From an uncultured bacterium (GTDB taxonomy: Bacteria; DRYD01), in the NCBI GenBank assembly GCA_937139605.1, contig CAKZQG010000026.1, positions 1-64,000 of the forward strand: a stretch of 64,000 bases of DNA, in the 5' to 3' direction. This document shows, one piece after another, positions 27,526-54,038 of this stretch (position 1 is the stretch's first letter; each line of letters opens with the position of its first letter). The translations under genes were made by a program, and so were the position numbers. The notes beneath the pieces are model-generated. The model made no database searches. It was not told the origin of the DNA and saw nothing but the letters and a program-made list of their open reading frames with translations.

Positions 27526-27935
27526 TCTTCTTCCTCCTCTATCATTCCTTCAGCAAACCTTTTAAGCCAGTTCAAAAAGGCAAGCAATTCCTGAGTTATC
27601 CAGCGGTATTCCCTGCTATCACAACTTATAACCCATTCAATAAGCTCGTTTTTATCAGGAGGCATTTGAATTCTTATTGTTGAGTTGCTCTTCATATATT
27701 CGGTTATCTGATTATACAATAATTTATAAGCATTTCCATCTTTTGCTTTAGCCTTCACAAAGGCAAGGGTCTGTCCAAGACCATTTAAAAGAATCATAGT
27801 AGGAATTTTTTTTACATAGGACCGATATTCTCTTTTTCCTTTTTCATTTAACTTATACGTTACCTGTTCTACACACCTATAAGCATATTCAGCTCTACCT
27901 TGTTCAAGTTTTTTTATTTCACTTTCCTTGCTCAT
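27522..27935 (-). CDS. cmr5: Type III-B CRISPR small subunit Cmr5
   Basis: Cmr5 is the small helical subunit that forms the minor filament of the Cmr complex and contacts target RNA. The 137-residue protein is all helix, with the family opening LEQGRAEYAYRCVEQV and PTMILLNGLGQTLAFVKAKA (about 46-66), and ends in a run of Glu. It overlaps cmr4 by 17 bp and cmr6 by 4 bp, as expected in a tightly coupled operon. Length is usual. Confidence 0.92.
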   Translation of the reverse strand: MSKESEIKKLEQGRAEYAYRCVEQVTYKLNEKGKREYRSYVKKIPTMILLNGLGQTLAFVKAKAKDGNAYKLLYNQITEYMKSNSTIRIQMPPDKNELIEWVISCDSREYRWITQELLAFLNWLKRFAEGMIEEEEE

Positions 27936-30052: not shown

Positions 30053-30054
30053 AT

Positions 30055-31164: not shown

Positions 31165-31165
31165 A

Positions 31166-33931
31166 TTAATCTCCCTTATTGATAAAAGATAAAATTTCAA
31201 TGATATTAGAAAAATTGTCAATATTCATACCTGATGCAACAAATAGCTTCCATACTTTATCGTGAAACTCAATACAAAATTCTTTCTTTTTCTTTTTTTC
31301 TCCATTGTATGCTCTAATAGCAAGTCTTTTAAGTTCTGTTTTAGCAATTTGTTCATTACACAATAAATATCCTAATGAATCTTCTGTATTATTTTTGAGT
31401 TTTATAAATTCCATTTTAAATTTCTGTACAAATCCATGTGAAATATATTGTTTAGTATCTGGGTTCATCATTTCTTTTATCCCTTTCATTAAATCTGTTA
31501 TTAACTCAAATTTTCCATTTGTTTTAATTATCCATTCAAATACAGAAACTCTTTCTTCCCCAGATTTCTTTATTAATGAAATTGCGAATCTATTTTTTCC
31601 TTGGGATTTGGCTTTTTTCTTCATTTTATAAACTTTATCAATTACAAGTTTTAATGGTTCCTTATAGTGAGCAATTACAATCCCCATTGAACAAGTTGCA
31701 TTTTTACCCATTGTTAAATAATAAATATCTTCCTTTAGAACAAAACCACTTGTTTGATTAATATCTACGTTAATTTTATTATTTTTAACTTTAATATGTC
31801 CTGAAAAAGCCCACCTTAGTTTTTCTATCACATCCATCAAGTCTTTCAAATTAACAAAAGCGAAGACATCATCACCACCTGCATAGACTAGCTTTCCTAG
31901 ATGCTCTTCTTCTACAATTTTTCTTACAAACTCTATGGCATAATTTTTCAAGGCCCTTGAAATAGCTGAATGAATAGCAGGAGTTAGAAACTTTTTGCCT
32001 ATTTTTTGTTGCAAGTCTTTTTTAAAGGCTTCAGGTAGTTTTACCCATGTATTGCTATTATAAGCATATTCAATATTTGGTAAAAGTTCCCCTGAAAGCC
32101 AACGTCCCATGTTATCTCCATCCAGATAAATAACAGCATAGTATGGATTTGGGTTGCCAATCTTATCTTTTATAGACTTCAAACATCTTTTTAGTTTCTC
32201 TATTTCTTCATCACTTATTTCTAATCCCAATTCTTTTTTGATAAATTCTTTCTTTAAATTCTCTTCAAAAAAGTATTCTCCTTCAAGGTTTTTAGTCAAA
32301 CTTTCTTTTAATTTAGGCAAGGGAGTTCCTTCAGGGAGTTTTTTATTTAACATCTCTTTTATGTAGCTTTCCATATCTTCTTTAGCTTCTTTTAATGCTC
32401 TTTCTTTAAAATCAGAAGCAGCAATCTCAGCTGTTGAAGGAAAACCAAAATCTTTAAATTTCTCGTTCATTTTCCCAGCTAAAGTATTTAAATAAGCGTC
32501 AAAAGTTCTTTTGAAAAAGCACAATCCACATAATCCTTCTCCATCAGATAGATATTTCCTTGGAAACTCTTTAATATCCTTTAGATTGATAGCTATGGGA
32601 TTATATCTTGAAAATCTTTGAGGGTTTTTCTCTTCCCTATAAAATAAGACATTTCTTTCTCCACAGAGTGAACATTTTCTTCCTTTTTCTTCAAAATAAT
32701 TAAATTCTCTTAAATTTTTTCTTGCACCAATAAATTTTTCAAGAACTGTATAAAAAAGCTGATATAATATTCCAATATTAGGAGGATTTTCTCCTGTTTC
32801 TTGTGCAAATTTAAATATTTCCTTCCATTTATCTATTTCGTTTTTTTCAATAAAATTTGTTAAGTCATCAATAGCTAAATCTCTGTTTTTAATCTTCCAG
32901 GGTACAGAAACCCAATAGATCTGAGGAAAATCACTCAAATGGTTATCAAATATATTCTTTTGGTATTCTGTTAAAGTTAAATTTAACTCATTTAAAATCC
33001 TTTCTTTTGCAGCTTTTATTTCACTTTGAATTTTTTCTTTCATTTTTTGAGCAATTTCCTTTAATTTACTTTCATCAGTTAAAGGAATAATTGCCACAAA
33101 TCTGTTTGGAATGGTTGGTAGATCAACAAAAGGAGAATATGAATTTCTTAATGGTATTTTTTGTTCTTTTTCATCTTCTTCAAGAAGCCAGTCTATAAGT
33201 GGCTGTTTATATAAATCAGGGTAAATTATAGATGTTGGTCCAAAGTGATTTATAATTTCTTTGATTGCAACAAAAGTTAAATATGATAGGATAAAACTCC
33301 CCATATAAAAATCTTGAGTTTTTCTTGCTTGAGAAATAAAAGATTGGACAGGTCCTATAGTAAAAAGAAAAAGAGAATTGTTTTGATATAAGATTTTATC
33401 TTTTTCATTCCAGAAAGCGTTTAGTGTTGAAGTGATTTTTAGATGTTCCCAGATAGAATGGTCTGGGATCCTTGTGTCAGCTGGTAATATAGGGAGATAT
33501 TTTAGCCATATTTTGTGATTTTCTTTATCTTTTAAAACTGAAAAAATTTCATCTTCAAGATTTCGCCACATATAAAAGAACTTACGTTTATCGTCATAAT
33601 TTAACAAATCAAGGTTTAAAAAAACCTCTTCTATAGAACTAAAAATTTCATCTTTATCAATAGATAGTGTAAATTCTAACTTTCCTTCAGATAAAGGATG
33701 TCTTATTTCATTAAACTTTTGATATATCTTTTTTTCTTTTGGAAGCAAACTTCTCTCCATACAAGAAGCAATCAAGTCTGAACCTTTTGATTCTTTTAAA
33801 TTACTTATCCCAATTTTTTCAGCATATTGCTCAGCCCTTTTTTCATGAGTTACAATCTCAAAACATTTATCAACTGGGTCATGAAGGATCGATTTAAGCT
33901 TTTCTAAAAAATTATTATTATTGCTATTCAT
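31166..33931 (-). CDS. cmr2: Type III-B CRISPR large subunit Cmr2 (Cas10)
   Basis: Cmr2 is the Cas10 subunit: it makes cyclic oligoadenylate, and in some systems cuts DNA, when target RNA is bound. An N-terminal HD-like remnant reads KLKSILHDPVDK (about 10-21). A zinc-binding region has CSLCGERNVLF and CGLCFFKRTF. The first Palm has AVIYLDGDNMGRWLSG (about residue 600), and the second keeps the cyclase motif YAGGDDVFAF (about residue 683), so synthesis should be active. I start at the ATG of 33931 (MNSNNNNF), preceded by GGAG and overlapping cmr1 by 8 bp. A longer frame begins at 33964. Size is typical. Confidence 0.95.
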   Translation of the reverse strand: MNSNNNNFLEKLKSILHDPVDKCFEIVTHEKRAEQYAEKIGISNLKESKGSDLIASCMERSLLPKEKKIYQKFNEIRHPLSEGKLEFTLSIDKDEIFSSIEEVFLNLDLLNYDDKRKFFYMWRNLEDEIFSVLKDKENHKIWLKYLPILPADTRIPDHSIWEHLKITSTLNAFWNEKDKILYQNNSLFLFTIGPVQSFISQARKTQDFYMGSFILSYLTFVAIKEIINHFGPTSIIYPDLYKQPLIDWLLEEDEKEQKIPLRNSYSPFVDLPTIPNRFVAIIPLTDESKLKEIAQKMKEKIQSEIKAAKERILNELNLTLTEYQKNIFDNHLSDFPQIYWVSVPWKIKNRDLAIDDLTNFIEKNEIDKWKEIFKFAQETGENPPNIGILYQLFYTVLEKFIGARKNLREFNYFEEKGRKCSLCGERNVLFYREEKNPQRFSRYNPIAINLKDIKEFPRKYLSDGEGLCGLCFFKRTFDAYLNTLAGKMNEKFKDFGFPSTAEIAASDFKERALKEAKEDMESYIKEMLNKKLPEGTPLPKLKESLTKNLEGEYFFEENLKKEFIKKELGLEISDEEIEKLKRCLKSIKDKIGNPNPYYAVIYLDGDNMGRWLSGELLPNIEYAYNSNTWVKLPEAFKKDLQQKIGKKFLTPAIHSAISRALKNYAIEFVRKIVEEEHLGKLVYAGGDDVFAFVNLKDLMDVIEKLRWAFSGHIKVKNNKINVDINQTSGFVLKEDIYYLTMGKNATCSMGIVIAHYKEPLKLVIDKVYKMKKKAKSQGKNRFAISLIKKSGEERVSVFEWIIKTNGKFELITDLMKGIKEMMNPDTKQYISHGFVQKFKMEFIKLKNNTEDSLGYLLCNEQIAKTELKRLAIRAYNGEKKKKKEFCIEFHDKVWKLFVASGMNIDNFSNIIEILSFINKGD

Positions 33932-34823
33932 TGACCAACTCCTTAATAAAATTTTTTTGTTCATTAAAATTACATTCTGGGTAATTTTTAGGGAATACAG
34001 GGTTTAATATAGTGATTATGGGTTTTAATTTCCCTTTTGTAATAACTCCAGAGACATAAACTGGGGAAGCCATTCGTGGGTTTGCGTTGCCTAATGAAGG
34101 ATCCTTATATTTATGAGATACATTCCCGATAAATTCTAAAAATTCATTATAATTCCTAAATTCTCTGTTACTTAGTATAATTTCTTGTATCCATGGGTAT
34201 TGTAACTGATGTATTTTTTTATTTATAATTGCTTGAACATTATTTATAATTTTTGAATTCGCAATTTCATATCTTCCGTTATTTATTCCATTTAATAAAA
34301 TAAGGATATCATTTAAACTTTTTATTTCCTTTTTGGGGTAAATTATTTCAAAACTTCCAAAACCTCTTCTTGAGCGTTTTCCAAAACCACCCAAAATAAA
34401 TGCTAAGTAAATTAAATTTTCTATCCAATAAAGATTTTCTTGAGTAACAAAAAAAACAATTTGTATTTCTTTTTCTGGTTTTACTGCTTTTCTCTCAAAT
34501 GCTTTCTTACAATTTATTTTTTCGTCGATTGTACAATAATTCCTTTTATGATGTGGCAAAAGTTGATAGTCTATTTTATCGGATTCATTTAATTCAGTTA
34601 AAATTCTTATGTATAATTTACTCTTACCTTCTTTTTCTATACTACCGAAAATTTCTGCTTCTTCTTTTTTTAATTTTTGGATATTATCCTCAGCTTTTAT
34701 TGCTCTCCACCACCACCGCATCATCCCTTTAAATTCTGTAGGTCTTAGTTCTGTGGTCTCTTTATCTGAGCCAGCCATAAACATTGGGGTTATTAGCTTA
34801 CATCTTAAATTCAATTCCTTCAT
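33924..34823 (-). CDS. cmr1: Type III-B CRISPR RAMP protein Cmr1
   Basis: Cmr1 lies at the 3' end of the crRNA in the Cmr complex. The protein opens with LRCKLITPMFMAGSDKETTE and LRPTEFKGMMRWWWRAIKA (about 28-46), the strongest Cmr1 signature, and has the glycine-rich LGGFGKRSRRGFGSFE. I placed the start at the ATG of 34823, after GGAGAGAAG. The frame is also open through ATGs at 34838 and 34850, the last one inside the terminal CRISPR repeat. Only about 20 bp lie between the array and this gene, so it probably has no promoter of its own. First gene of the operon. Confidence 0.94.
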   Translation of the reverse strand: MKELNLRCKLITPMFMAGSDKETTELRPTEFKGMMRWWWRAIKAEDNIQKLKKEEAEIFGSIEKEGKSKLYIRILTELNESDKIDYQLLPHHKRNYCTIDEKINCKKAFERKAVKPEKEIQIVFFVTQENLYWIENLIYLAFILGGFGKRSRRGFGSFEIIYPKKEIKSLNDILILLNGINNGRYEIANSKIINNVQAIINKKIHQLQYPWIQEIILSNREFRNYNEFLEFIGNVSHKYKDPSLGNANPRMASPVYVSGVITKGKLKPIITILNPVFPKNYPECNFNEQKNFIKELVNE

Positions 34824-34843
34824 ATCTCTTCTCTCCATTAACT

Positions 34844-35543
34844 GTTTCAATTCCTTATAGGTAGGCTAAAACTCAGTGTTTTTATGCCATTAAATACAGT
34901 TATAGTTCGTTTCAATTCCTTATAGGTAGGCTAAAACTATTAGCAACAAAAACAAAACTTAAAAGAGAATATTTGTTTCAATTCCTTATAGGTAGGCTAA
35001 AACTTTCTTTGGTAGGGGTTTTGCAACCCCTACCTTGTTTCAATTCCTTATAGGTAGGCTAAAACATTCGTATCTTATCTCTAATCTCTTCCTTATACTT
35101 ACGTTTCAATTCCTTATAGGTAGGCTAAAACGAATAGAGATAGTATAGGGATGGAATAGGGATAGAGAGTTTCAATTCCTTATAGGTAGGCTAAAACGAG
35201 ATCTTCCTTTTTGAGGAAGATCTCGTTGACTGGAGTTTCAATTCCTTATAGGTAGGCTAAAACCTCCTTGGATTGGGATTTTTTCCTAGTTGAGCTTATG
35301 TTTCAATTCCTTATAGGTAGGCTAAAACGGAGTAAGGAGGAAAGTATGAGTTTATTGAAATTAGGTTTCAATTCCTTATAGGTAGGCTAAAACATAAAAA
35401 ATAAAAAAATTCTCTCCCTGCAGGCAGGGGAAAAGTTTCAATTCCTTATAGGTAGGCTAAAACAATAACTTCTACTATGAGTTATGAGTATAGTAATAGA
35501 TTATAGCACAATAAGTTTCAATTCCTTATAGGTAGGCTAAAAC
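34844..35543 (-). CRISPR. CRISPR array, 11 repeats of 29 bp and 10 spacers
   Basis: Repeats start at 34844, 34909, 34975, 35037, 35103, 35169, 35235, 35300, 35365, 35435 and 35515 and are identical. On the plus strand each begins GTTTCAATTCC and ends GGTAGGCTAAAAC. On the transcribed minus strand the 3' end is therefore ATTGAAAC, the form typical of I-B and III-B crRNA tags. Spacers, left to right, are 36, 37, 33, 37, 37, 37, 36, 36, 41 and 51 bp. The leader is on the right, so the 51-bp spacer is the newest. Spacers 3 and 6 are perfect hairpins, and 9 and 10 contain shorter inverted repeats. Confidence 0.99.
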
Positions 35544-35860
35544 CCGTAAAGTAAATTTTTTACTTTCTATAATAAAATTAAATAAGAAATAAAAAAATCC
35601 TTCTTAAAAAATAATAAAAAATTTCCGTCGATCGGAGATACCCCCAAAACTCCTAAGGGATCGACGAAACAAGTAATACCAAGATAAAAACATCAATACA
35701 TAAAGAAAACCATTGAAAAATAAGAAACTACATAAGCATAATCAATCCCTTGAAAATAAAAGAATAAACAATTGTAAAAATTTAATTAACAATTTTGTAA
35801 TATTTTTTTAACAAATAAAAATCGATCGACGGAAACATTTTTATTGACTTTTGTCAATAT
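35544..35860 (-). promoter_or_regulatory. CRISPR leader
   Basis: AT-rich sequence adjoining the leader-proximal repeat. It holds a GC-containing inverted repeat, CGTCGATC (35626-35633) and GATCGACG (35659-35666), and a further GATCGACGG at 35824-35832, all unusual in this base composition. The palindrome TTGACTTTTGTCAA lies at 35844-35857. Read on the minus strand it begins TTGACA, a -35-like element, but no matching -10 is clear. The same leader, decayed, occurs at 24953-25203. It probably drives the array and guides Cas1-Cas2 integration. Confidence 0.85.
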
Positions 35861-35898
35861 TTTTAACACATCTTCTAAAAAATTACTATTCATCCTCT

Positions 35899-35953
35899 AA
35901 TACACTTCCCTAAATACACTTCCTTAAATACACTTCCTTAAATACACTTCTCA
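35899..35953. repeat. Four tandem copies of a 14-bp unit
   Basis: The unit AAATACACTTCCTT is repeated four times with small changes in the outer copies. It lies between the leader and the end of cas1. From here to 36083 the sequence is AT-rich with several ATCA/ATCC patches and no gene. Confidence 0.8.
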
Positions 35954-36083
35954 TACATCTCCTATATCAAAAATCAATTTCCTTATTATAAAAAATCATC
36001 ATTATCAAAAATCATCCACATTGTTTTATCTACAATTCCCTTGTTTTATCACAATTCTATTATTTCTATTATTATCAATTTCA

Positions 36084-37201
36084 CTACCAATCACTAACAA
36101 AAGGCTCAAAATCCTCCTCACCTATCAAATGTTTCTCTAACTTATATAACTCCATCCTAATTACCCTCCTATAACTAACTTTATTTATTTTTTTTAAATT
36201 TATAGTAGTATTTAACCTTTCTTCAAGATATTTTATAAACTTCTTTTTTCCATCCTCATTCAAATAAGTAATACCTAAATCCTCATTAAAATCATCTGCT
36301 GATATAATCTTCTTATTAACTAAAGTAAAAATAGTTCTATCAACAATAACAGGCTTAAATATTTCAGAAATATCCAGATTCAAAGAAAATTTTCTATAGG
36401 TAGCCGAATGTAAAAAACCTATCCTAGGATCTAAATGAGTCCTATATATTTCACTCAAACAAATACTATACAAATAAGAATTACCAAAACTAATCAAAGC
36501 GTTAATTTTATCAGCAGGCGGGCGTTTTGAACGCTTATCAAAATAAAAATCCTCATTCCTCATAATTTTATTGAAAGCTCTATAATAAATAGCCTTACTA
36601 TTCCCTTCATAAGCCATTAACTCCTCTATATTCTTACATCCATTAACTTTCTCTAAAAAAATCGATATAGAAGATATCTCATAATCTAAATCATATCCCC
36701 TATTTTTGTAATAATTCAAAATCCGTAAGCTATTAAGAATAGCTCCAATAGTAATCGCCTTGGCTAAAAAAACCCTTTTATTAGTATCTAAATAATGCTC
36801 AACCTGCTTTAAAAGAATAAAACCAGAATTATAAAATTCCCTTGGATAATACGTACCCTCATAATAACCATAATAATTATAAAAATGAACCAAAATATTA
36901 TGCTTAGAAACAAAATCCAAAAACTTTTTAGTTATATAAAAACTATTAGAAAATATATGTATCTCGTTAATAGCATTAAATGGAATATATTTTTTATTAA
37001 TATTCTTAGAAGATCTTTGATTCTGATTATTTAAATCCTTACTATCTGTATCTTATCTTCACAATTATCTAGATGATTATCATCAAATTTTTCAATATTA
37101 TCAAGCTCTTCAATATTACGTTGAGTACTTTCTTGAAAATATATAGTATTTTGTTTTCTTTTTAAATAACCATCCTTAAAAATAAAAAGTGGTTTCCTCA
37201 T
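36084..37201 (-). pseudogene. cas1: CRISPR integrase Cas1, interrupted by a frameshift
   Basis: Cas1 with Cas2 inserts new spacers. The C-terminal frame (from 37053 leftward, including an ATG at 36920) has HNILVHFYNYYGYYEG, the RAFNKIMRNEDFYF and RPPADKINALISFGNSYLYS block, HLDPRIGFLHSATYRKFSLNLDISE and the metal ligands typical of Cas1. The N-terminal 50 residues are in another frame starting at an ATG at 37201 (MRKPLFIFKDGYLKRKQNT, a classic Cas1 start). The frames meet at GATAAG, about 37052-37057, where one base is missing. The join falls in an Asn/Asp-rich insert of about 45 residues between beta strands that most Cas1 proteins lack. Restoring one base would give a protein of about 373 residues. 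A real lesion would stop adaptation. Confidence 0.85.
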
Positions 37202-37229
37202 TTCCCATTATCTTTATTTTTAACTTTAA

Positions 37230-37493
37230 CTAAATTATATTAAAATCAGAATTCTTCAATACCCCCATATTATCTCTAATTAAATTTTTTTTATTAGGTA
37301 ATATATAAAAAATAACAGAATCATAATTTTCATCAATAACTTCCTTCAATTCTTTTTTTAATTTTAACAGGTTAGCATCAGTTATCTCACCTTCCAAAAC
37401 AGAATTCTGAATCCAGTTAAGATACTTTCTAGCAACTTTTAAAACCTTAGATACTCTTTCCTCAGACACATCATAAACCATAACTAAATACAT
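37230..37493 (-). CDS. cas2: CRISPR-associated protein Cas2
   Basis: Cas2 is the small dimeric scaffold of the Cas1-Cas2 integrase. The 87-residue protein has the ferredoxin-fold start MYLVMVYDVSEERVSKVLKV with the conserved Asp, then YLNWIQNSVLEGEITDANL and a C-terminal strand VIFYILPNKKNL. Length is normal. Transcription runs from cas2 into cas1 with a 28-bp gap, the reverse of the usual cas1-cas2 order. Confidence 0.95.
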   Translation of the reverse strand: MYLVMVYDVSEERVSKVLKVARKYLNWIQNSVLEGEITDANLLKLKKELKEVIDENYDSVIFYILPNKKNLIRDNMGVLKNSDFNII

Positions 37494-37542
37494 AAACCTA
37501 CCCCATTAATTTAAAGTCCAATTAATTCAAAGTTTTTTAGTA

Positions 37543-38304
37543 TTAAAGGATATCAAACATACCAAATCCTTGAGAATTCTTAGCTCCTAAACCTACATCG
37601 TAAGCAAACTTTATAATATCTCTATCCCCACTAATAAAAAAATTACCATAAAACCCCTTTATCACATAATCACCTTTATACATTATAACCCTACAATGCC
37701 TCTTATAATCAAAAGAACCTAATTCTAAATTAAAATTAAAATTATCTTCATTCAAATTAGCTAAATAAAAAGAATTATACTTCTTTAATAAATTAAGTTT
37801 TATAAGCCTATAAAATTCCTTCTCCAAAGGAGAATAATAATAAGTTTTCTTCAAACTTCCTCCATTACTTAAAGTACTATAAACAGTTATAGGAGACAAT
37901 AACCTTATAGATACCCCTTTTATACATGAATCATTAAAAACAGTAGGATACTTAATAACTTCAATAGATTTAAGATAAATAACATTTTTAAATAATATAA
38001 ATTTTTCATTTAGTACAAAAGATTTAGCTAAATTAGCTAACAAATCATCTAAAACAGAAGAAATATAAAAATAAAACTCCTTATTTATATTAATCATTTT
38101 GTTTTGAATAATGCCTTTAGGAAATATTTTAGAAAAAACAAAAAGCTTAAACTTTCTTTTATTATATGAATAAGCATTGTTATGAATAAATTCAGATAAA
38201 TTTGGATCAATTATATTCTTATAAATAAAGCTTTGTAAAACATAATTGTAATGAACCGGTAAAATGATATTTCTATCAGAATAAAACGTTAATTTTATCC
38301 TCAT
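37543..38304 (-). CDS. cas6: CRISPR pre-crRNA endoribonuclease Cas6
   Basis: Cas6 cuts pre-crRNA within the repeat to leave the 8-nt 5' tag. The 253-residue protein has two RAMP-like folds: it opens MRIKLTFYSDRNIILPVHYN, with a His in the catalytic helix region, and closes with the glycine-rich loop GLGAKNSQGFGMFDIL. Size is standard for Cas6b. It is the only Cas6 in the window, so it probably serves both the I-B and III-B complexes. Placed between cas4 and cas2, which is unusual, since cas6 often leads I-B operons. Confidence 0.92.
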   Translation of the reverse strand: MRIKLTFYSDRNIILPVHYNYVLQSFIYKNIIDPNLSEFIHNNAYSYNKRKFKLFVFSKIFPKGIIQNKMININKEFYFYISSVLDDLLANLAKSFVLNEKFILFKNVIYLKSIEVIKYPTVFNDSCIKGVSIRLLSPITVYSTLSNGGSLKKTYYYSPLEKEFYRLIKLNLLKKYNSFYLANLNEDNFNFNLELGSFDYKRHCRVIMYKGDYVIKGFYGNFFISGDRDIIKFAYDVGLGAKNSQGFGMFDIL

Positions 38305-38327
38305 ATATAAAGTAATTTAAATAATAA

Positions 38328-38882
38328 TTAGCTAAAGCAATAGAATCTATAAGCACATTTTTCACAAAAAACTATTTTCTTAAATTTAGGTGGCTTTTCA
38401 TTTTTTATAATATTAGTTATAGAATCTATACATTCCTTTAATTCCTTTTCTAGCTCAGGAGTTAATTCCACTTTTATATTTTTTTTCTCTAACGGTATCA
38501 ATAAATTAGCAGTTAAGGTAGGTATAATATTTTTTAGAGTATATAAATAAAAAGCTACCTGCATGATTGCCGGCTTTATAAACTTCGAACTTTTTTTTAT
38601 TTCCCCAATTATTACTGTATTCTCTTCTGATAATCTTATAATATCTATCTTTATATTCTCAAATATAAACTCTTTTTTTTCGTTAGTGTAAAATATTTCA
38701 TGAATTGTTCGACCAACCTCTAAATAAGGGTCTTCTTGATCAGAATTGATATTTCTACTTATAAACCAAACTTGTCTATGACAAACATAATAATACCAAA
38801 CTAAAACCCCCATTATCCTTATCTCCTCATTATTACTATAAAAATCCAAATCCTCTTTTAAATAGTCTTTAAATATATCCAT
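38328..38882 (-). CDS. cas4: CRISPR-associated exonuclease Cas4
   Basis: Cas4 trims and PAM-selects prespacers for Cas1-Cas2. The 184-residue protein has one Cys in YYYVCHRQVWF (about 34), the RecB-like nuclease residues in EVGRTIHEIF and IIGEIKKSSKFIKPAIMQVAFYLY split by a short loop (E-x-K and Q-x3-Y), and the C-terminal iron-sulfur cysteines in CEKCAYRFYCF. All four cluster cysteines are therefore present. It is free-standing, not fused to Cas1. Confidence 0.94.
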   Translation of the reverse strand: MDIFKDYLKEDLDFYSNNEEIRIMGVLVWYYYVCHRQVWFISRNINSDQEDPYLEVGRTIHEIFYTNEKKEFIFENIKIDIIRLSEENTVIIGEIKKSSKFIKPAIMQVAFYLYTLKNIIPTLTANLLIPLEKKNIKVELTPELEKELKECIDSITNIIKNEKPPKFKKIVFCEKCAYRFYCFS

Positions 38883-38946
38883 AATGAAATTATATAACCC
38901 AAAACGCTACAGATAATTAAAAATAAACAAATTAAAATAAAAATAA

Positions 38947-41451
38947 TCAAAATAATAATAAATCTTCATTTTTAGGTATAAAACCTGTTTCTTTATCATA
39001 ATAATTTTCAAGCATAGAATTACACACATATAAAAAGCCATTATTTTCTACAGGTAAATTTTCTTTAGCATATGTATAAGAAACATTTATAACATATGAA
39101 TAGAATTCTGATTTTATTTTTAAAAACCTTTCTCTTTGCTTATAATAATCTTTTCCCTTTTTTAAATTAGAAATGATATCACAATATTCTTGCCAGATAT
39201 TTACGGCATTTTCATCAATCTCAATAAAAATAGGATATTCTATATACTTCCGCTCGATTAAATTAAATAAACTAATATTACTGAAATTCAATTCCTTTAC
39301 ATAATTAATTAGTTCATAACTAACATCTTTAGAAACCTTGTTTATTAGTAAATTATTATAAATTTCGTATATATTATAAAAATCTTTTTCATATATTTCG
39401 TTGGAATTAATTTCTAATATCATATTTATAGTATTTTCAGTTAAAATCTTATCGTAAATATATGAATAAAAATACCTTTGATTTTTTTCATCTAATATTT
39501 TGTATATATCAATATTACATGGTTGTAGGTTATTATAATTTCTATTAGTTCTACCAGCAACTTGTATTATACTATCTAAAGGGCCAAAATCTCTTATAGC
39601 GTAATCAAAATCAAGATCAACCCCAGCTTCTATCAACTGAGTAGAAACCACTATCTGCTTGTAATTATCATACATTCTATTCTTTATATCCTTTATTATC
39701 TGTAATCTTTGTTTAGGGATTATATGAGAACTTAAAAAGTAGATCTTTATTTGATTATCTATTATTTCTTGTTTTAATAATTTATAAAATTCTTTTGCAG
39801 ACCTTATTGTATTCAAAATTACCAGTATATTTCTATAATATTTAAAAACATCTAAGAGTTTATTTTTTAAATCCTGTAAAGTTAAATCTTCGTAGATATT
39901 AAAGTTTATTTTTACTCTATTTAGATTTATATAAAGCTCTTTGTAAGCAAGTGTTTTATTAGTTTGTAAAATTATAGGTTTTGTAGCAGTAGATAAAATA
40001 AAATAATTGTTAAAATAATAAGATAAAGCCTTAAAAATTGTATTTAAAAAAGAATAATATTTATAGGGGATATTTTGAACCTCATCTAAAATTACAATAG
40101 AACTAATCAAATTATAGAATCTCATTAAAGTCGAGACTTTATTTTTAGTAATAGTTTCAAATAATTTAACAAAAGTAGTTAAAACTATGTGGGAATCCCA
40201 ATTTTCAATCATTAACTCTCCCTTTAGTAAATCCAAGTATTCTATATTTTCATCACTATTATCAATCTTATACTCAAATTTACTAAGATAATGATGAGAT
40301 ATATATAAATTACTTGTTAAATTAATTTTTTTAAAATTAAAAGCCTTTTTTATTAATTCATCTACCTGGTCTATTATACTTAAAAAAGGTAAAGAATATA
40401 TTACTTTAGGATGATAATTAAAATTTGATTTTATTTTTTCTTTAATTTTTAATGCTAAATTTAAATTAATAAGAGTTTTCCCTATACCTGTTGGTAAATT
40501 TACCCCTATAATATTATCAAATAAATCATTTAAAATTTCTTGCTTTATTTTATTATAAGTTTCTTGCCTTAACTTTAAAAATTGATTACTATTATTTTCA
40601 ACATCTTGATTTAAAGTATTTTTATTTAAGTTATTTACATAATCATCGAAAATATCATAATCTATAAAATCTTGATTAAAATAAAACAATTGAATATTAG
40701 CTGCGTCTCTTCTATCAGCAAATAAAAGTATAGACATAATTAAAAAAGTAAATATATATTTACCTGCAAGCTCATATAAACTATTTTCATTATCCAACAC
40801 TAAAATCTTTTCATTTAAATTAACTATTTCTTTATAAATTTTACAAAAACTTACTTTATTGAAGTATTTATGGAATTCATTATAATTATATAATAAATTT
40901 TTCGTATTATTTAAAGATTTTTCTAAATAAGGGATTTCATTAAAAAAACTATTATCTAAATTCTCTTCAATTGAATTTAACTGTTCTTTCAATATGTCTA
41001 TATTATTTTTATCAATAGATATATTATCATATAGATTTTCTAAATAACTATGATGTTTTTTTATAACTATAAAACCTATATATGGAATAATATATCTTAA
41101 TTCTTCTGAAATATTTTTTGGGATTAAGTATTCTTTTAAAGCAAAGAAAGCTAATATAGCAGATATTAATGAATGTTTAGTTAAAGGAGATACTTTTAAC
41201 TTATTTTTTTTATTATTATTAGTTTCAAATAAATATTCTTGGAAATATTTTGTAGCTTTGCCAAGATCATGATAATACGCTATTATTAAAGATATATCTA
41301 TTAATTCATCTTTATTTAAGCCCATTATATTATTTTTTACAAAAATATTAGAATAAAGCTTTTTAGAAATATTAGCAGTATTTCTTAGATGATCTATCAA
41401 ATACTTATCAGGATGAGAATATAACATAATCTTAGTTTCTAAAATATTCAT
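38947..41451 (-). CDS. cas3: CRISPR helicase-nuclease Cas3 (type I-B)
   Basis: Cas3 is recruited by the I-B Cascade to nick and unwind target DNA. The 834-residue protein has an N-terminal HD nuclease domain with IIAYYHDLGKATKYFQEYL (about 53-71) and KHSLISAILAFFAL. It then has an SF2 helicase with Walker A LPTGIGKTLINLNLAL (about 318-333), the Walker B variant ILDEVQNIPYKYY, STATKP, and motif VI IQVAGRTNRNY. DEVQ replaces DECH/DEAH. HD and helicase are in one chain, as usual for I-B. It starts immediately after cas5 stops. Confidence 0.95.
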   Translation of the reverse strand: MNILETKIMLYSHPDKYLIDHLRNTANISKKLYSNIFVKNNIMGLNKDELIDISLIIAYYHDLGKATKYFQEYLFETNNNKKNKLKVSPLTKHSLISAILAFFALKEYLIPKNISEELRYIIPYIGFIVIKKHHSYLENLYDNISIDKNNIDILKEQLNSIEENLDNSFFNEIPYLEKSLNNTKNLLYNYNEFHKYFNKVSFCKIYKEIVNLNEKILVLDNENSLYELAGKYIFTFLIMSILLFADRRDAANIQLFYFNQDFIDYDIFDDYVNNLNKNTLNQDVENNSNQFLKLRQETYNKIKQEILNDLFDNIIGVNLPTGIGKTLINLNLALKIKEKIKSNFNYHPKVIYSLPFLSIIDQVDELIKKAFNFKKINLTSNLYISHHYLSKFEYKIDNSDENIEYLDLLKGELMIENWDSHIVLTTFVKLFETITKNKVSTLMRFYNLISSIVILDEVQNIPYKYYSFLNTIFKALSYYFNNYFILSTATKPIILQTNKTLAYKELYINLNRVKINFNIYEDLTLQDLKNKLLDVFKYYRNILVILNTIRSAKEFYKLLKQEIIDNQIKIYFLSSHIIPKQRLQIIKDIKNRMYDNYKQIVVSTQLIEAGVDLDFDYAIRDFGPLDSIIQVAGRTNRNYNNLQPCNIDIYKILDEKNQRYFYSYIYDKILTENTINMILEINSNEIYEKDFYNIYEIYNNLLINKVSKDVSYELINYVKELNFSNISLFNLIERKYIEYPIFIEIDENAVNIWQEYCDIISNLKKGKDYYKQRERFLKIKSEFYSYVINVSYTYAKENLPVENNGFLYVCNSMLENYYDKETGFIPKNEDLLLF

Positions 41452-42303
41452 CTAAAATATACTTATACTTAATTTAGAGTTAGTATTATCTTTTAATATT
41501 AGTGTTTTTTTTAATGTAGCTTTTATAGTTTTTGCATTATTCTCAAATAAAAAAACTTTATATTTTATAGTTTGTCTATTAGGATCCATTAAATAAGCTA
41601 CCTTTTCTTTCATATAAAACTTATTCTCTAAGCCTAAATTTAATTCTAAATTTTCTAAATTATCTATATCTATTATGGTATTGAAATCAGAATTATAGTT
41701 TTCTTTTATGTCTATTATTTCATATTCATTTATATATTGATAATTCAATAAACAAAAACTTAAACCCATATATGGAGTAAATACAGCCAATCTATTTAAT
41801 AAATTATATTTTAATTTTTGGTATATATTTTGATCTTCAATAGAAACATATATTCTATAGCTAGGGTTCTTTAAGAATTCAATATTAACTTGAGTCCTAT
41901 AGATCTTAATAGGTTCTTTGAGTTTAGAAATATCTTGAAATATTTTTGTTCTTTGGCCATCTGATTTACAATCAACTAAATTTAAACCTAATCTTATTTT
42001 ATTCACTGGATTTAACAAACTTAAAGCTATTATAGTATTATCTGGTTTCATTAATTCAAAATATTCGCTATTATTATTGCCATAAATATCCTTAGGTATG
42101 CCAACTATAGCAGCTATTATACCTATTATCGCTGTTCTTGGAATAATAGAGAATGTCAAAGGAGAAGATGTAGTATAGTACTTCCTAAAATGCCCATAAT
42201 CAGAATATATATCAAATACCAAAAATTTATTATTACTTTTCTTTAAAACTAACTCATAAATATTCTCATTGATCTCATTTATATTTTTGTTTGCATTCAT
42301 CAC
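41452..42303 (-). CDS. cas5b: Type I-B Cascade subunit Cas5
   Basis: Cas5 holds the 5' tag of the crRNA in Cascade. The 283-residue protein has FDIYSDYGHFRKYYTTSSPLT-type text (about 30-50), then SIIPRTAIIGIIAAIVGIPK (about 52-71), the signature of Cas5 in I-B systems (Csh-type). The rest is a weakly conserved RAMP fold, with a TYMGLS-like AVFTPYMGLSFCL segment. It abuts cas3 exactly and follows cas7. Confidence 0.92.
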   Translation of the reverse strand: MMNANKNINEINENIYELVLKKSNNKFLVFDIYSDYGHFRKYYTTSSPLTFSIIPRTAIIGIIAAIVGIPKDIYGNNNSEYFELMKPDNTIIALSLLNPVNKIRLGLNLVDCKSDGQRTKIFQDISKLKEPIKIYRTQVNIEFLKNPSYRIYVSIEDQNIYQKLKYNLLNRLAVFTPYMGLSFCLLNYQYINEYEIIDIKENYNSDFNTIIDIDNLENLELNLGLENKFYMKEKVAYLMDPNRQTIKYKVFLFENNAKTIKATLKKTLILKDNTNSKLSISIF

Positions 42304-42357
42304 CTTTTATCACCTTGTGTATATATTATTTTAAGTATATATTATTTTAAGTATATA

Positions 42358-43254
42358 TCATTTTAGATTTCTCAACTCTTCTAAATTAATATTATTTTTT
42401 AATTCATCTATATAAGGCTTATATATTAGATTTGGATTTATAATATACCTTATTTTTTCTATTTTATCTTTGTTATTTATTAGCGTATCATATAGCTCAG
42501 TTAAATCCAATTCATAATCCTTATAAGATCTTATATATTCATCTTTTTCGACTTTAAGATTTAATTTAATTTTTTTATCTAAATCTCCAATATGAAAATT
42601 ATTTTGCTTATATACTATTTGTAGTAATAATCTACTTTGTTGAGAAGGTTTAGATCTTGTTATTAAATTATTAGTGCCGTAATAGATAGCTTCTAAAAGG
42701 AGCTCAACATCTTCTTCCGTTAATTGAGTTTCCTTAGCAGCATTCTCGTTAATTATTCCATAAAAACAAATTAATGAATAAGGTAATAAATAAGTTTCCC
42801 AGAATGTTCCTTGCTGTCTTTCACTAGCTGATGGTAAAACTGTTGTACCCTTTATATAATTTATATCCACTTTATGTAAAGATCTTCCAAATTTAAATTG
42901 TACAGGCCCTGTTAAAGCATAATTATTGTTTTTTATTGAAAAAGTCCCTCCAAATAATCTTATATCTATACACCTATTTATTACCTCATTTAATTCTTTA
43001 TATGCTTGAAAAATTTCGTCCCTTGTTTTTAGGTTATTATTTTCATCTCTTTCTTTTCTAATAAATATCTCCCTACCTTTAAAATCCTGTAAATAATCTC
43101 TTATTGTTCTTTTTAATCTGACATCAGTTACTATATTATAATTAGTTAATTCATCTATTCTTGGTTTATTATCTAAAGCATCCCCATTAGGATTACCATT
43201 TTCTATATCATATATAAATAAAATCTCACTTCTATTTTTTATAATATTACTCAT
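42358..43254 (-). CDS. cas7b: Type I-B Cascade backbone Cas7 (Csh2)
   Basis: Cas7 polymerises along the crRNA to form the Cascade backbone. The 298-residue protein opens with RSEILFIYDIENGNPNGD and ALDNKPRIDEL, the diagnostic Csh2 start. RLKRTIRDYLQDF, DIRLFGGTFSIKN and TGPVQFKFGRSLHKV follow. The end is short and Asn-rich. Length and order (cas8b, cas7, cas5) are standard for I-B. Confidence 0.95.
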   Translation of the reverse strand: MSNIIKNRSEILFIYDIENGNPNGDALDNKPRIDELTNYNIVTDVRLKRTIRDYLQDFKGREIFIRKERDENNNLKTRDEIFQAYKELNEVINRCIDIRLFGGTFSIKNNNYALTGPVQFKFGRSLHKVDINYIKGTTVLPSASERQQGTFWETYLLPYSLICFYGIINENAAKETQLTEEDVELLLEAIYYGTNNLITRSKPSQQSRLLLQIVYKQNNFHIGDLDKKIKLNLKVEKDEYIRSYKDYELDLTELYDTLINNKDKIEKIRYIINPNLIYKPYIDELKNNINLEELRNLK

Positions 43255-43315
43255 TTAACTTTCACCTCCAATTTCTCTTTTAAATTTTTATTTTTTAAAT
43301 TTTTAATTTTTAAAA

Positions 43316-45127
43316 TTAATTACTTTTAAATGTATTTTCAAAATAATTACTAAAGCTCATACCTAAAGCAAAATAGAAGTTAATTTCATCTAAGGAAATA
43401 TTTTTATAATTTTCTTTCCAATCTGTCCCAACTTTCAAATAATAATAAGAAACTAACTCCTTTAGTATTGTAAAAATTTTATAATTAATATCGTATTCCA
43501 TGATTTTATTTACAAGTTCTTTATAAAGTATTTTAAAATCATTTTCATTCATTTTTAAGTTTTTAATATTTTTAATGAAGGGTGAAGATCCTCGTCGTCT
43601 TTGTTGTTCTTTTATAAAAAGCTGCGTCAATACCCCTTCTAAAAATATAAATTTAAATAAATCATTTATAAAAGCTTTAGAAAAATTATTAAAAAAATTC
43701 TCTGCTAACTCTATATTTGTTTGGTTAATATTTTCGATTTTCTCGGGTTTTATTGCATCTTCTGGCATACCTATCACCTCCTGAATTAAATTTAATTCAA
43801 GTAAAAATAAATAAAACTTAAACACATAGATAGTAGTTTCAAGAATCGAACCACTTTTAAAAGCTGAATTTAGTTTATCTGATACCTGTTTAAATAAAGT
43901 GCTTTTTGAAATAGGTATCATTTTAAATATATTTTCTATTGCCTTTAAAAACAATTTTTCATTACCATTAAATACTTTATCCTTAGCTGAATCCAATTTG
44001 AACTCTTCCCCTAAAATCTTATTAAGATTTTTATCTGTAATTTTACTTAGCAAAATATCTCCTTTAAATACCCGATCTATATATTCTTTTACAGAAAATA
44101 TTTTAGAAATCGTTGTAGGTAAAGTATTTTCTATAAATAACTTTATTCTAAATGCATTATTTTCTTTTTCATAAAATAAAAAATTGTATAATATATAAAT
44201 ATTATTAAGCCTTAAGTAATCTAATATTTCATTTTCATCTTCTGTTATCTTTCTTAAATTACTTAAAGTATTTTTTCTATTATAGTAATCTTTTATTAAA
44301 TATTTCAAAGTATCAACAAAATCTGAATTATTATTTATAACAAAATCTGGAATAAGATAATAATCAATTCTTGCTAATTTAAAGCTTAAATAATTATCTA
44401 TAAAATAATATCCATTGATTATTTTATAAATACAATCTATACATAATGGAAAATTTTTATACATTTCTTTTTCTTTAAATCCATTGGATATGTAGTTAAT
44501 TTTATCAAAGGTATAGAATTTTAGGGGGAAGCCTTTAGCCACTACAGTTTTAAAACTATCACAACTATAACATTTTCCTTGCCCTTTTACTTCAGAATTA
44601 TCTTCCTCAAAACTATTTAATATTATTTCTTTAAATTTAGATAATTCAGAATCATCTTGTATTATATCTTTTAAATAATAAATTTCTTTATTTGAATCTA
44701 TAAATCCTATTGTTATTAAATATTTTTCTTTATCTGAAAAAAGAGTTTTTAATTTTTTTAGTATGTTTTCCTTATTTTCTTTTAGTTGTAAATATATTTT
44801 ATCTATTACGAGATATTTTTGCCTATATTTATTATTACTAAAATATTTAAATATTTTATTTTCAAAAGTTCTTTCAATCTTTGTTATTTTAGCTGTTGGG
44901 GTATAATTTGTACCAGCCGATGAACCTGAAATAAGTACGTACTTTTTACCTTCTTCTTTAGTTTCTTCTAAATGGATATCCTTATACTCAAAAGTATCTT
45001 TATCAAACAATATTACAAGAGCATATTTATAATTTTGATCAACTTTTTCAGAAAGGATTTCTATTTTATCTTCATAACTTAATGAATCACTTTTATAATC
45101 ACTTAACATTATAAAATTACTAATCAT
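43316..45127 (-). CDS. cas8b: Type I-B Cascade large subunit Cas8b (Csh1 family)
   Basis: Cas8b recognises the PAM and recruits Cas3. The 603-residue protein belongs to the Csh1/TM1802 group: a zinc site is formed by CYSCDSFKTVVAKGFPLKFY and PLCIDCIYKIINGYYFID (about 184-240), the most conserved stretch of this family. The remaining sequence is helical and Asn/Lys-rich. It is the first gene of the operon; ribosome binding is by GGGAG about ten bases upstream of the ATG at 45127. A possible promoter with TTGACA lies at 45234-45247. Confidence 0.88.
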   Translation of the reverse strand: MISNFIMLSDYKSDSLSYEDKIEILSEKVDQNYKYALVILFDKDTFEYKDIHLEETKEEGKKYVLISGSSAGTNYTPTAKITKIERTFENKIFKYFSNNKYRQKYLVIDKIYLQLKENKENILKKLKTLFSDKEKYLITIGFIDSNKEIYYLKDIIQDDSELSKFKEIILNSFEEDNSEVKGQGKCYSCDSFKTVVAKGFPLKFYTFDKINYISNGFKEKEMYKNFPLCIDCIYKIINGYYFIDNYLSFKLARIDYYLIPDFVINNNSDFVDTLKYLIKDYYNRKNTLSNLRKITEDENEILDYLRLNNIYILYNFLFYEKENNAFRIKLFIENTLPTTISKIFSVKEYIDRVFKGDILLSKITDKNLNKILGEEFKLDSAKDKVFNGNEKLFLKAIENIFKMIPISKSTLFKQVSDKLNSAFKSGSILETTIYVFKFYLFLLELNLIQEVIGMPEDAIKPEKIENINQTNIELAENFFNNFSKAFINDLFKFIFLEGVLTQLFIKEQQRRRGSSPFIKNIKNLKMNENDFKILYKELVNKIMEYDINYKIFTILKELVSYYYLKVGTDWKENYKNISLDEINFYFALGMSFSNYFENTFKSN

Positions 45128-50574: not shown

Positions 50575-50587
50575 ATTTTAGTTTTTT

Positions 50588-51908
50588 TAAATTTATTTGT
50601 TAAAAATTTGTAAATTTATTCATTAAAAGTATTTTTTAAGTGTGTTTTTTTATTGACTTTTGTCAATTTTTTTTGACATATTTTTAGAATTTTTTTTAAA
50701 ATTTCATAGATTGTAAAATTTGTAAAAAATATATTACAAAATTGTAAAAAACTTGTTAATAAAATCAACTTTATTGACTTTTGTCAATATCGATTTTTCC
50801 ACATTGACTTTTGTCAATTTTTTTTGGCATTTTTTTACAAAAAATTTTACAAAAATGATTCTCTTTAGGAATTTCCCTTGTTAAAAATTTGTTAACTAAT
50901 TTGTTAAAAATTTGTAAAATACCCTTTTTTATTGACTTTTATCAATTTTTTTTGATATTTACTTTTTCCATCTCTAAATGTAAAATTTGTAAAAATTATT
51001 TTACAAAATTATTAAAATTTTGTTAATAAAAATCAATTTTATTATCTTTTTTAAAAATTTAAAAAAATATTGACTTTTGTCAATTTTTTTCAATATTTTT
51101 TAATATTTTTTAAAAAATTTACTTTTTTCTTAAAAAAAATATTATTTTTTATTGACTTTTATCAACTTTTTTGTATATTTTTTTATCATTTTTTCAAAAA
51201 AATTTTTTCAAAATTTTTCAAAAAAAAATTTTGTTAAAAATTTGTTAACTAATTTGTTAAAAAATTGTTAAATGATTTTTTTATTGACTTTTGTCAACTT
51301 TTTTGACTATTATTTTTTTATATTTCTAAATGTAAAATTTGTAAAAAATATATTGCAAAATTGTTAAAAACTTGTTAATAAAATCAACTTTATTGACTTT
51401 TGTCAACTTTTTTGATATTTTTTATTTTTTTTAACAAAAAATAAAATTCCAAAAAATTTTTTAAAAAATTTTTTTTGTTAAAAATTTGTAAACTGATTTG
51501 TAAAAAAATTGTTAACACCTATTTTTATTGACTTTTGTCAATTTTTTTTGACATATTTTTAATAAATTTTTATATATTTCCTAATGTAAAATTTGTAAAA
51601 AATATATTACAAAATTGTAAAAATTTTGTTAATAAAAACCAATTTTATTTATTTTTTTTAAAATATTGACTTTTATCAACTTTTTTTATATTTTTTTATT
51701 TTTTTCAATATCTCAATAAAAAAAATATTATTTTTTTCAAAAAAAATGCCCTTTTTTATTGACTTTTATCAATTTTTTTTGATATTTTTTAAGTCTTCTT
51801 TTTTATATAAATTTTTTTCAAAATTTTTAAAAAAAATTATTTGTTAAAAATTTGTTAACTAATTTGTTAAAAAATTGTTAAATACCCTTTTTTGTTGACT
51901 TTTATCAA
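50588..51908. repeat. Compound long repeats with TTGACTTTTGTCAA palindromes
   Basis: Four to five copies of a block of roughly 245-365 bp follow each other. Each contains a TTTGTTAACTAATTTGTTAAA-type element (near 50588, 50879, 51231, 51475, 51838) and a TGTAAAATTTGTAAAAAATA element (50710, 50978, 51329, 51580). One or more copies of TTGAC-TTTT-(G/A)TCAA are also present. Palindromes start at 50653, 50774, 50804, 50932, 51070, 51152, 51284, 51393, 51528, 51666, 51759 and 51895. No gene is present. The block leads directly into the DnaA-box cluster and looks like an iteron array. Confidence 0.85.
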
Positions 51909-51969
51909 TTTTTTTATATATTTTTTTAAATTTTTCCCAATTTTTTTATTTTTTTTACAAAAAATAAAG

Positions 51970-52292
51970 TTATCCACATACCCATATAAAGTTATCCACA
52001 TTTATCCCCAAAGTTATCCACATTTTATCCACATGTGGATAAATTATATTAATTTTGTGGAAAAATTCCATTTTTTTGTGGATAACTATGTGGAAAAATT
52101 GTGGATAACTCCCAAAGGTTAAAAAAATTATCCACATATTTTTTAAGTTATCCACATCTTATCCACATACCCCCATCCTTATAAACCCTTGATAATACTA
52201 ATTCTAAAAAAGTTTTCCACAAATGTGGATAAATATACTACTACTAAATAATATATTTATATAATATTATAGTAGTAAATGAACTACTACTA
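51970..52292. other. oriC: Putative chromosomal origin (DnaA-box cluster, DnaA-trio, AT-rich unwinding element)
   Basis: Eleven perfect DnaA boxes occur: forward TTATCCACA at 51970, 51992, 52014, 52025, 52128, 52148 and 52159, and reverse TGTGGATAA at 52034, 52077, 52100 and 52224. Three one-mismatch boxes lie at 52056, 52089 and 52213. Right after the last box, ACTACTACTA (52237-52246) matches a DnaA-trio in the orientation seen in Bacillus subtilis. An AT-only tract (52247-52269) follows, then TAGTAGTA and a second CTACTACTA (52284-52292). Nearly all genes for 50 kb to the left point leftward, as leading-strand genes would. dnaA is not adjacent; dnaB is 46 kb away. Confidence 0.9.
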
Positions 52293-52558
52293 AAAATAAA
52301 AATTTTTCAATTTTAGAAAAAATAACAATTAAGGAGAAAATATAAACACTAATAGGACTTTTTATAACTATATGGGGTTATTAAAGTAATTTAATTTTTT
52401 TTGGAAGTTAAATATAAAAACTAAGCCGGGGTTTAGGAGTTATTTAAATTTTAGATAGTGTATCTAATGTTATGGGTATATGCTCTTTTGTTGTGAGTTT
52501 ATAGTTTTTTAAATTTAAAAGTGGGTTTATGGGGGTGGAGCCCATTTTTAGGGGGGGG

Positions 52559-52664
52559 TTATTTTAACTTCCTAATGGGGTATGGGGCGAAGCCACATTG
52601 TTAGGGGGGTTTTAGGGGGTTATTTTAACCCCCTAATGGGGTATGGGGCGAAGCCCCATTGTTA
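52559..52664. repeat. Duplicated GC-rich hairpin element
   Basis: Two 45-bp copies (52559-52602 and 52620-52664) share CTAATGGGGTATGGGGCGAAGCC and a TTATTTTAAC start. Each holds GGGGCGAAGCCCC (an 'a' replaces one C in the first copy), a tight hairpin with a GAAG loop, and the pair TTAGGGGGTTA/TAACCCCCTAA spans the junction as an 11-bp stem. A third partial relative is at 52521-52550. The right copy overlaps the stop of the Rieske gene, so it may act as terminator. Its base composition stands out sharply. Confidence 0.8.
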
Positions 52665-52994
52665 AAAAAGTATATAAATTTTATTATTTTCGATTTTAGT
52701 TTTAAATATATTAATGGGTGTAACTGCAGGCATTCTAAGGGCTTTACCTGTTTCTAAATCAAATATTGCTCCATGATGAGAACATTCTATTGTTTTTTTA
52801 GATTCATTAATGTTTCCATCTTCTAAACTTTTTTCATCATGACTGCATTTATTTTCTATACAGAATATAGCGTTCCCTATTTTTATAATTAATATTTCTA
52901 AGTTATCTGCTAGTTTTTTCTTGATTTTATTAGTATTTTTTAGTTCATCTATAGTTGCTATTTCTATCCAGGTATTGGATGTATTTAAACTCAT
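52662..52994 (-). CDS. Rieske [2Fe-2S] ferredoxin-like protein
   Basis: A small Rieske-type electron carrier, as in ring-hydroxylating dioxygenase ferredoxins or nitrite reductase small subunits. The 110-residue protein has the cluster ligands in CSH (50-52) and CSHHGAIFDL (71-80), that is, C-x-H and C-x2-H. There are no extra disulfide cysteines. No oxygenase or nitrite reductase partner is nearby, so the partner is unknown. It lies just right of the origin-like region and ends in the GC-rich hairpin repeat. Confidence 0.9.
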   Translation of the reverse strand: MSLNTSNTWIEIATIDELKNTNKIKKKLADNLEILIIKIGNAIFCIENKCSHDEKSLEDGNINESKKTIECSHHGAIFDLETGKALRMPAVTPINIFKTKIENNKIYILF

Positions 52995-53042: not shown

Positions 53043-54038
53043 TTATATTAGCATATATTTAATAACGGTTTCAGAGGGTAGGAATTTTTTTAAGTAATTT
53101 TCTAATTTTGTTAAGATAATATTATTTTCTGGCATTCTAAAATATAATGACGGAGTTTCTTCTGTTAAGCTTAATATAAAACTAGTTATAGTATCAAGGT
53201 AATTATTTGAATTAGAATTAGATATATTTTCTATTCTTAAGATTGAATTAGATTTTAAAATATTATAAAAATTAATGGAATTAAAAGAAAATGGATTAAA
53301 ATAAAAAGTATTAACTTTAAGATCTGTATAGTTTATTTCTAGGTAAGCTGTTCTGTTTTGATAGGGTAGGTTATATAGATATTTATCTAAATTAATTTCT
53401 AAGTTTTGTTGTTCTATATATTTATAATAATTTTCTTGTTGGTTTTTTATTAAACCTATTACTCTTTCTGAGTTGATTGTTTTTATTATATTTTTTAATT
53501 TTAAGATATTACCGTCTGATATTATAAAAGAGTTATTATTAAATTTATAATGAAATAGAGAGTAAATATAGAATGATTCTAAGGAAAGCATTAGGTAGGT
53601 AGTATAATTTTCTAAGTATTCATTTATAGGCCAAGTAAAATCTGAATTTATCTCAAAAAAAACTATGAACATATTAGTTCTATTTAAATCAATATTTTTT
53701 AATATTGTATTTAAGTTTTCAACACTTTTTAAAATATCTATATTTTCTATTAATATATATTCTTTAATATAGTTTTTTAAGAGTTTTGGAAGATTTTGGC
53801 GATAATACGAACTTAAACAATAAAAAATAAAAGGATTCCCAAATTGCAACCTTTCTTTTACTATTGATACATATCCAATAACTGTTAAAAATACAAATTT
53901 ATCTATATCATAAAAAAAACTTTTTTTTACCCCATCTACTATGTAATAATTAAATTCTTTGTAATTAATGTTTTTATTGATTTTATAATAGCTTAGGTTT
54001 TCTAATAAATTTACTTTTATATTAGGTTTTATTGTCAT
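53043..54038 (-). CDS. Hypothetical protein, 331 aa, coupled to csaB
   Basis: I do not recognise this family with confidence. The protein is soluble. A block near residue 170-205, SFIISDGNILKLKNIIKTI followed by RVIGLIKNQ, is faintly like the nuclease NurA (Asp-Gly then a later hydrophobic VIG-K), and TAYLEINYTDLKVNTFYFN could be a following strand. This is suggestive only. The gene overlaps the upstream pyruvyltransferase gene by 17 bp and so is translationally coupled to it. Confidence 0.6.
   Translation of the reverse strand: MTIKPNIKVNLLENLSYYKINKNINYKEFNYYIVDGVKKSFFYDIDKFVFLTVIGYVSIVKERLQFGNPFIFYCLSSYYRQNLPKLLKNYIKEYILIENIDILKSVENLNTILKNIDLNRTNMFIVFFEINSDFTWPINEYLENYTTYLMLSLESFYIYSLFHYKFNNNSFIISDGNILKLKNIIKTINSERVIGLIKNQQENYYKYIEQQNLEINLDKYLYNLPYQNRTAYLEINYTDLKVNTFYFNPFSFNSINFYNILKSNSILRIENISNSNSNNYLDTITSFILSLTEETPSLYFRMPENNIILTKLENYLKKFLPSETVIKYMLI

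Follow-up and report, generated by a model that had tools for sequence, protein, structure and literature searches.

A locus in which clustered DnaA boxes, DnaA-trios and AT-rich DNA are preceded by a long array of compound repeats is almost certainly the chromosomal replication origin (oriC) of this uncultured, AT-rich bacterium. Sequence comparison supplies the grounds: conserved box positions, a nearly invariant inverted pair of boxes (the dyad) and turns in the GC skew together argue for a chromosomal oriC with a basal unwinding system (BUS). The best explanation overall, and a fairly probable one, is that BUS anatomy is combined here with an array that serves as a regulatory platform. What is new relative to known trio-bearing origins is the phased regulator-type array together with a mirrored trio. 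The window, that is the whole stretch of DNA analysed, comprises nucleotides 1-64,000 of a 107-kb contig (C26) from a 1.88-Mb draft genome (G000) of 45 contigs that is 88.5% complete. The comparison set consisted of seven genomes from one order, G000-G006, where G001 belongs to the same genus as G000, G002-G005 belong to a sister genus and G006 belongs to another family.

DnaA boxes and the presumed unwinding region

The dense cluster of eleven DnaA boxes reported in the preliminary description was recovered in full. Exact TTATCCACA/TGTGGATAA boxes start at 51970, 51992, 52014, 52025, 52034, 52077, 52100, 52128, 52148, 52159 and 52224, and no exact box was found elsewhere in the 64-kb window. 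The whole 1.88-Mb genome contains 31 exact boxes, 11 of which sit in these 263 bp, where approximately 0.003 are expected. Three TTTTCCACA-type boxes at 52056, 52089 and 52213 raise the in-register total to 14, with successive spacings of 22, 22, 11, 9, 22, 21, 12, 11, 28, 20, 11, 54 and 11 bp. The boxes are laid out as two convergent arms followed by a third, and the spacing falls mostly in helical turns. Coordinates of all features are given in Table 1.

Table 1. Sequence features of the origin locus and palindrome copies outside it (window coordinates unless a locus is named)
Feature	Position	Strand	Description
Compound-repeat array	50580..51965	.	87% A+T; modules A, B and C, in rough order A-B-C-B repeated
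Module A, copy 1	50879..50918	+	TGTTAA-N5-TGTTAA-N6-TGTTAA-N5-TGTAAA (steps of 11, 12 and 11 bp)
Module A, further copies	51232-51271, 51476-51515, 51842-51881		half copy at 50598-50614
Module C, copy 1	50712..50759	+	TGTAAAATTTGTAAAAAATATATTACAAAATTGTAAAAAACTTGTTAA
Module C, further copies	50979-51026, 51331-51378, 51585-51632		
B palindrome, 1 of 12	50653..50666	+	TTGACTTTTRTCAA, 14 bp
B palindrome, other starts	50774, 50804, 50932, 51070, 51152, 51284, 51393, 51528, 51666, 51759, 51895	+	14 bp, same orientation
DnaA-box cluster	51970..52232	.	11 exact and 3 TTTTCCACA-type boxes
Inverted DnaA-box pair (dyad)	52212..52232	.	GTTTTCCACAAATGTGGATAA, beside trio; nearly invariant in six species
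DnaA-trio tract	52238..52246	-	(CTA)3 on +, read as 3'-GATGATGAT-5' on -
AT-only stretch	52247..52269	.	23 bp of pure A/T; presumed duplex-unwinding element
Inverted trio	52270..52277	+	TAGTAGTA, opposite strand; (TAG) tract here in 6/6 genomes
Third trio tract	52284..52292	-	CTACTACTA; degenerate in relatives
Palindrome outside origin	L007		167 bp upstream of 16S gene
Palindrome outside origin	L247		86 bp upstream of 5S gene
Palindrome outside origin	L249		84 bp upstream of pilin-like gene
Palindrome outside origin	L010		233 bp upstream of HU gene
Palindrome outside origin	45,234		TTGACTTTTGTCAA motif; 107 bp upstream of cas-region gene
Palindrome outside origin	35,844		TTGACTTTTGTCAA motif; ~300 bp from CRISPR repeats
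Palindrome outside origin	L248		inside open frame

The BUS of the Bacillus subtilis oriC consists of DnaA-boxes, a short spacer, at least three 3'-GAT-5' trios and then AT-rich DNA, and is recognized by a DnaA-box, a spacer of up to 16 bp and at least three trios with a middle A (PMC8287927). The last box of the cluster (52224-52232) is separated by a 5-bp spacer from (CTA)3 at 52238, and the same box-spacer-trio-AT-rich order as in B. subtilis follows and is kept in relatives. The trio tract and the AT-rich DNA had thus been placed in the right order by the preliminary description, but the inverted trio at 52270-52277 had been overlooked. The origin differs from that of B. subtilis in that its two final boxes are inverted relative to each other and separated by 2 bp, dnaA is not adjacent, and the far side of the AT-rich stretch carries another trio, inverted and on the opposite strand. 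The 107-kb contig contains just two copies of CTACTACTA, those at 52238 and 52284 in the origin. CTACTA followed by TAGTAG within 60 bp is found at the origin and one other place on C26, and at the origin only on the corresponding contigs of G002, G003 and G005. A hairpin formed by the mirrored trios was considered and is not preferred, as folding is weak in most species (-2.8 to -11.6 kcal/mol).

By inference from work on B. subtilis, DnaA-ATP would spread from the dyad onto the trio strand and melt the AT-only stretch. Beyond a few model species, the way in which the second strand of an origin receives its helicase is an open question; in B. subtilis, DnaD binding opposite the trios has been proposed to place the second helicase. 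By analogy, the mirrored trio may aid loading of the second helicase here: the inverted trio could let DnaA itself mark the opposite strand, a proposal weakened by the finding that no DnaA box lies on the outer flank of this trio.

Conservation and chromosomal setting

The same layout was sought in relatives and is present in five, G001-G005, and this cross-species comparison strongly supports the identification of the locus as oriC. Contig C122 of G001 carries the same succession of array modules, DnaA boxes and trios as G000. A Rieske gene is on the side of the trios in the window and on that of the array in G001; therefore, the origin has stayed intact through rearrangement. The Rieske gene of the window adjoins a gene for a 331-aa protein (53,043-54,038) without a Pfam match, which has 65% identity to its counterpart in G001 and approximately 33% in G002, G003 and G005, there off the origin contig. 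In G002-G005, a cluster of TTTTCCACA boxes occupies the same place relative to the trio, and in G002 and G003, the two in which the flanking genes were read, the origin is flanked by alaS and an ABC-permease-like gene. With the dyad as reference point, boxes within each genus occupy the same positions to a base or two, barring gained or lost boxes, and the mid-cluster offset between the genera is 11 bp, which is one helical turn. Sequence identity among the six species is 92-100% inside boxes but mostly 46-62% between them (80% in the closest pair). In this little-known lineage, box spacing has been held nearly base-exact while the sequence between boxes changed.

The left TTTTCCACA box of the dyad is present in all six species and the right TGTGGATAA box in five, with TGTGGAAAA in its place in G004. 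The dyad GTTTTCCACAAATGTGGATAA is kept in the sister genus too, where all remaining boxes are TTTTCCACA. Because the dyad is near-invariant while the bulk box type differs between the genera, this pattern suggests that the trio-adjacent box pair is under separate constraint. The seventh genome, G006, has at least 11 TTTTCCACA-type boxes in a single orientation at one contig end (L198, G006:C58:1-190), where the contig start cuts the cluster and the trio side falls outside the contig.

Cumulative GC skew, proposed earlier as a check on the origin and calculated here on contigs, gave a divided result. In G002, G003 and G005 the minimum is 4-7 kb away from the cluster, but on C26 the curve falls to 52.5 kb, is nearly flat to approximately 74 kb, where the minimum lies, and then rises. 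As described previously, dnaA is not next to the cluster: it lies on contig C2 in G000, and likewise on a non-origin contig in G001, G002, G003, G005 and G006, and was not found in G004. A better, dnaA-linked origin was sought and rejected, since a scan of C2:1-20,000 revealed no box cluster within about 9-11 kb of dnaA. An oriC without linkage to dnaA is real here but ordinary; trio-bearing origins away from dnaA are already known. No match to canonical parS (TGTTNCACGTGNAACA) was found in the window with up to two mismatches allowed.

An integrated plasmid or phage origin with iterons is extremely improbable. Like plasmid iterons, the long repeats adjoin DnaA boxes and AT-rich DNA, and a resemblance to iterons had been noted on first inspection. 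That resemblance did not hold: a uniform repeat of approximately 20 bp is absent, and the locus instead contains long compound modules that recur at distances of approximately 100-370 bp, two types of site and a chromosomal context. The locus is conserved in six species, its neighbours are housekeeping genes (rpsP and trmFO in G000; tsf, pyrH, rpsL and alaS in relatives), and a plasmid search returned a single match, a 90-bp stretch with 79% identity.

Phased words in the compound-repeat array

The approximately 1.3 kb of compound repeats described as preceding the boxes is real. Module A contains four TGTTAA words, module B is TTGACTTTTRTCAA and module C contains TGTAAA words; all three module types are also found in G001, and G002-G005 share the TGTWAA part. 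The array holds 41 TGTWAH words, compared to 15.6 in shuffles, and 12 pairs at 11 bp (TGTWAH-N5-TGTWAH), compared to 0.1 in dinucleotide shuffles, although the modules are copies of each other, so that the spacing counts are inflated and not independent. Such 11-bp pairs number 15 on the 107-kb contig, with 12 inside the array. Within the 7-35 bp range, same-strand distances between the words in G000 are only 9, 11, 12, 22, 23, 31, 33 and 34 bp. Phased words are nevertheless present in all six species, thus in two genera that differ in their spacing, the distances in the sister genus being mainly 9, 11, 20 and 22 bp.

These words are probably sites for a response regulator of the OmpR/WalR/CtrA type, as their form is that expected for the family. 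They fit both the published CtrA site, TTAA-N7-TTAA (PMC4285127), and the published WalR site, TGTHH-N6-WGTNDD (PMC10746227). A strong PF00486 regulator is encoded once in each of the seven genomes, with a second, weak match in two. The best NCBIfam models for the G000 response regulator are YycF/WalR, RpaB, MtrA and PhoB, all below cut-offs, and its gene, on contig C24, adjoins a WalK/PnpS-like kinase gene. No 11-bp TGTWAH pair was found in the 7 kb surrounding the response-regulator gene.

Response-regulator-type sites are also found at other origins, including the Caulobacter Cori, where CtrA sites likewise form 11-bp direct repeats (PMC4285127), the Helicobacter pylori oriC with HP1021 and the Mycobacterium tuberculosis oriC with MtrA. 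Unlike these, the present origin carries its putative words, approximately 40 of them, away from the box cluster in an array of 1.3 kb. In Staphylococcus aureus, WalKR similarly has a WalR-type motif with an 11-bp period and links envelope state to initiation genes, but there the link is reported via dnaA and hup expression, whereas here the words lie at the origin itself (PMC10746227).

A structural role at an oriC, with phased AT-rich words making the DNA curved, easily melted or prone to HU-type binding, is unlikely, although it would accommodate the A+T content of 87% and a phase near the helical repeat (for pooled pair distances, R is 0.82 at a period of 10.5 bp in the genus of G000 and G001, and 0.57 at 10-10.25 bp in the sister genus). 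What is phased is a word in which one G is fixed (TGTWA), and A-tracts are much less phased than this word in this genus; curvature also needs no fixed 14-mer palindrome repeated 12 times. It is less likely again that the words are degenerate, low-affinity DnaA boxes through which the array loads or titrates DnaA. TTATTAACA and TTATNCACA differ at one position, and the helical spacing is like that of the box cluster, but position 7 of the word is mostly A in this genus and T in its DnaA boxes, and neither the TTGAC palindromes nor the 9- and 20-bp steps of the sister genus are explained.

Palindromes and a proposed regulatory platform

The TTGACTTTTRTCAA palindrome occurs 12 times in the array, and TTGACNNNNRTCAA matches 11 further places in the rest of the genome. 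TTGACTTTTRTCAA totals 22 copies in G000, 15 in G001 and no more than one in any other genome listed. All 21 origin copies from the two species keep both palindrome arms and the TTTT spacer. A looser palindrome, TTGAYNNNNRTCAA, failed as a marker of the genus, as it is enriched also in the sister genus, in relatives without the CRP-like protein described below; only the TTGACTTTTRTCAA form is genus-specific.

A CRP-like helix-turn-helix protein is encoded in G000 (on contig C6) and G001 and was not found in G002-G005; G006 has a different one. Its best solved relative is the CRP/FNR protein CprK (E 0.007), and the G000 protein scores below the Pfam cut-off and has no NCBIfam hit. A CRP/FNR site array would call for TTGAY-N4-RTCAA palindromes alongside a CRP/FNR protein; clusters of TTGACTTTTRTCAA and this protein coincide in G000 and G001 only, with weak family scores for the protein. 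Because palindromes also lie upstream of rRNA, HU, pilin-like and cas-region genes, a growth-linked regulator acting through them is plausible.

A promoter role for the array at an adjacent gene, or a role of the palindromes as -35 elements or terminators, in either case with no relation to replication, is very unlikely. TTGACT resembles a -35 hexamer, and several copies elsewhere precede genes by 84-233 bp. The neighbouring genes vary by species, however, but the position of the array next to the DnaA boxes does not; the nearest array-side gene in G001 reads towards the array, and both palindrome arms are kept. Terminators were rejected separately: a T-tract follows the palindromes, but the stem has only 5-6 AT-rich pairs, and the copies outside the origin are not downstream of genes in the right orientation.

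Two palindromes in the window outside the origin lie near CRISPR-associated sequence. Genes resembling Cmr-type and type I cas clusters (26,647-45,127) surround CRISPR repeats at 34,844-35,543, which comprise 11 matches to CRISPR-DR2. The motif-bearing segment at 35,760-35,900 is repeated almost identically at the start of C2 (L005, C2:1-150) and carries TTAACA/TGTAAT words like those of origin module C.

A regulator platform made up of putative sites is the somewhat favoured reading of the 1.3-kb array. The route by which growth state reaches oriC is an open question outside a few model species. Under the platform model, the TGTWAA direct repeats, with their 11- and 12-bp steps, would bind the single strong OmpR-family regulator of the genome, of WalR/RpaB/MtrA type, and the TTGAYTTTTRTCAA palindromes would bind the genus-specific CRP/FNR-like protein, which possibly also acts upstream of the rRNA, HU, pilin-like and cas-region genes. 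When loaded, the array would help or block assembly of the DnaA complex, so that initiation tracks envelope or growth state; the array probably tunes DnaA assembly. A fuller scheme, which we regard as doubtful, would have DnaA mark both strands for helicase loading through trios that border the unwinding element on either strand, approximately 40 response-regulator words and 12 CRP-like sites read envelope and growth signals at oriC, and CRP-like sites upstream of rRNA genes tie ribosome production and replication to one regulator. The conserved inverted trio and the array of putative regulator sites are sharp targets for in vitro work with purified proteins.

Two further repeats were observed in the window. 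A G-rich 61-bp tandem repeat (ccccctaatggggtatggggcgaagcccca) occupies 52,557-52,676. Similar sequence accompanies further sites on C2 and C24, and the repeat may therefore be interspersed across the genome. At the contig start (2-433), an open frame with a repeated LFGLK/FWLQ-like motif contains a short tandem repeat, coding or not.
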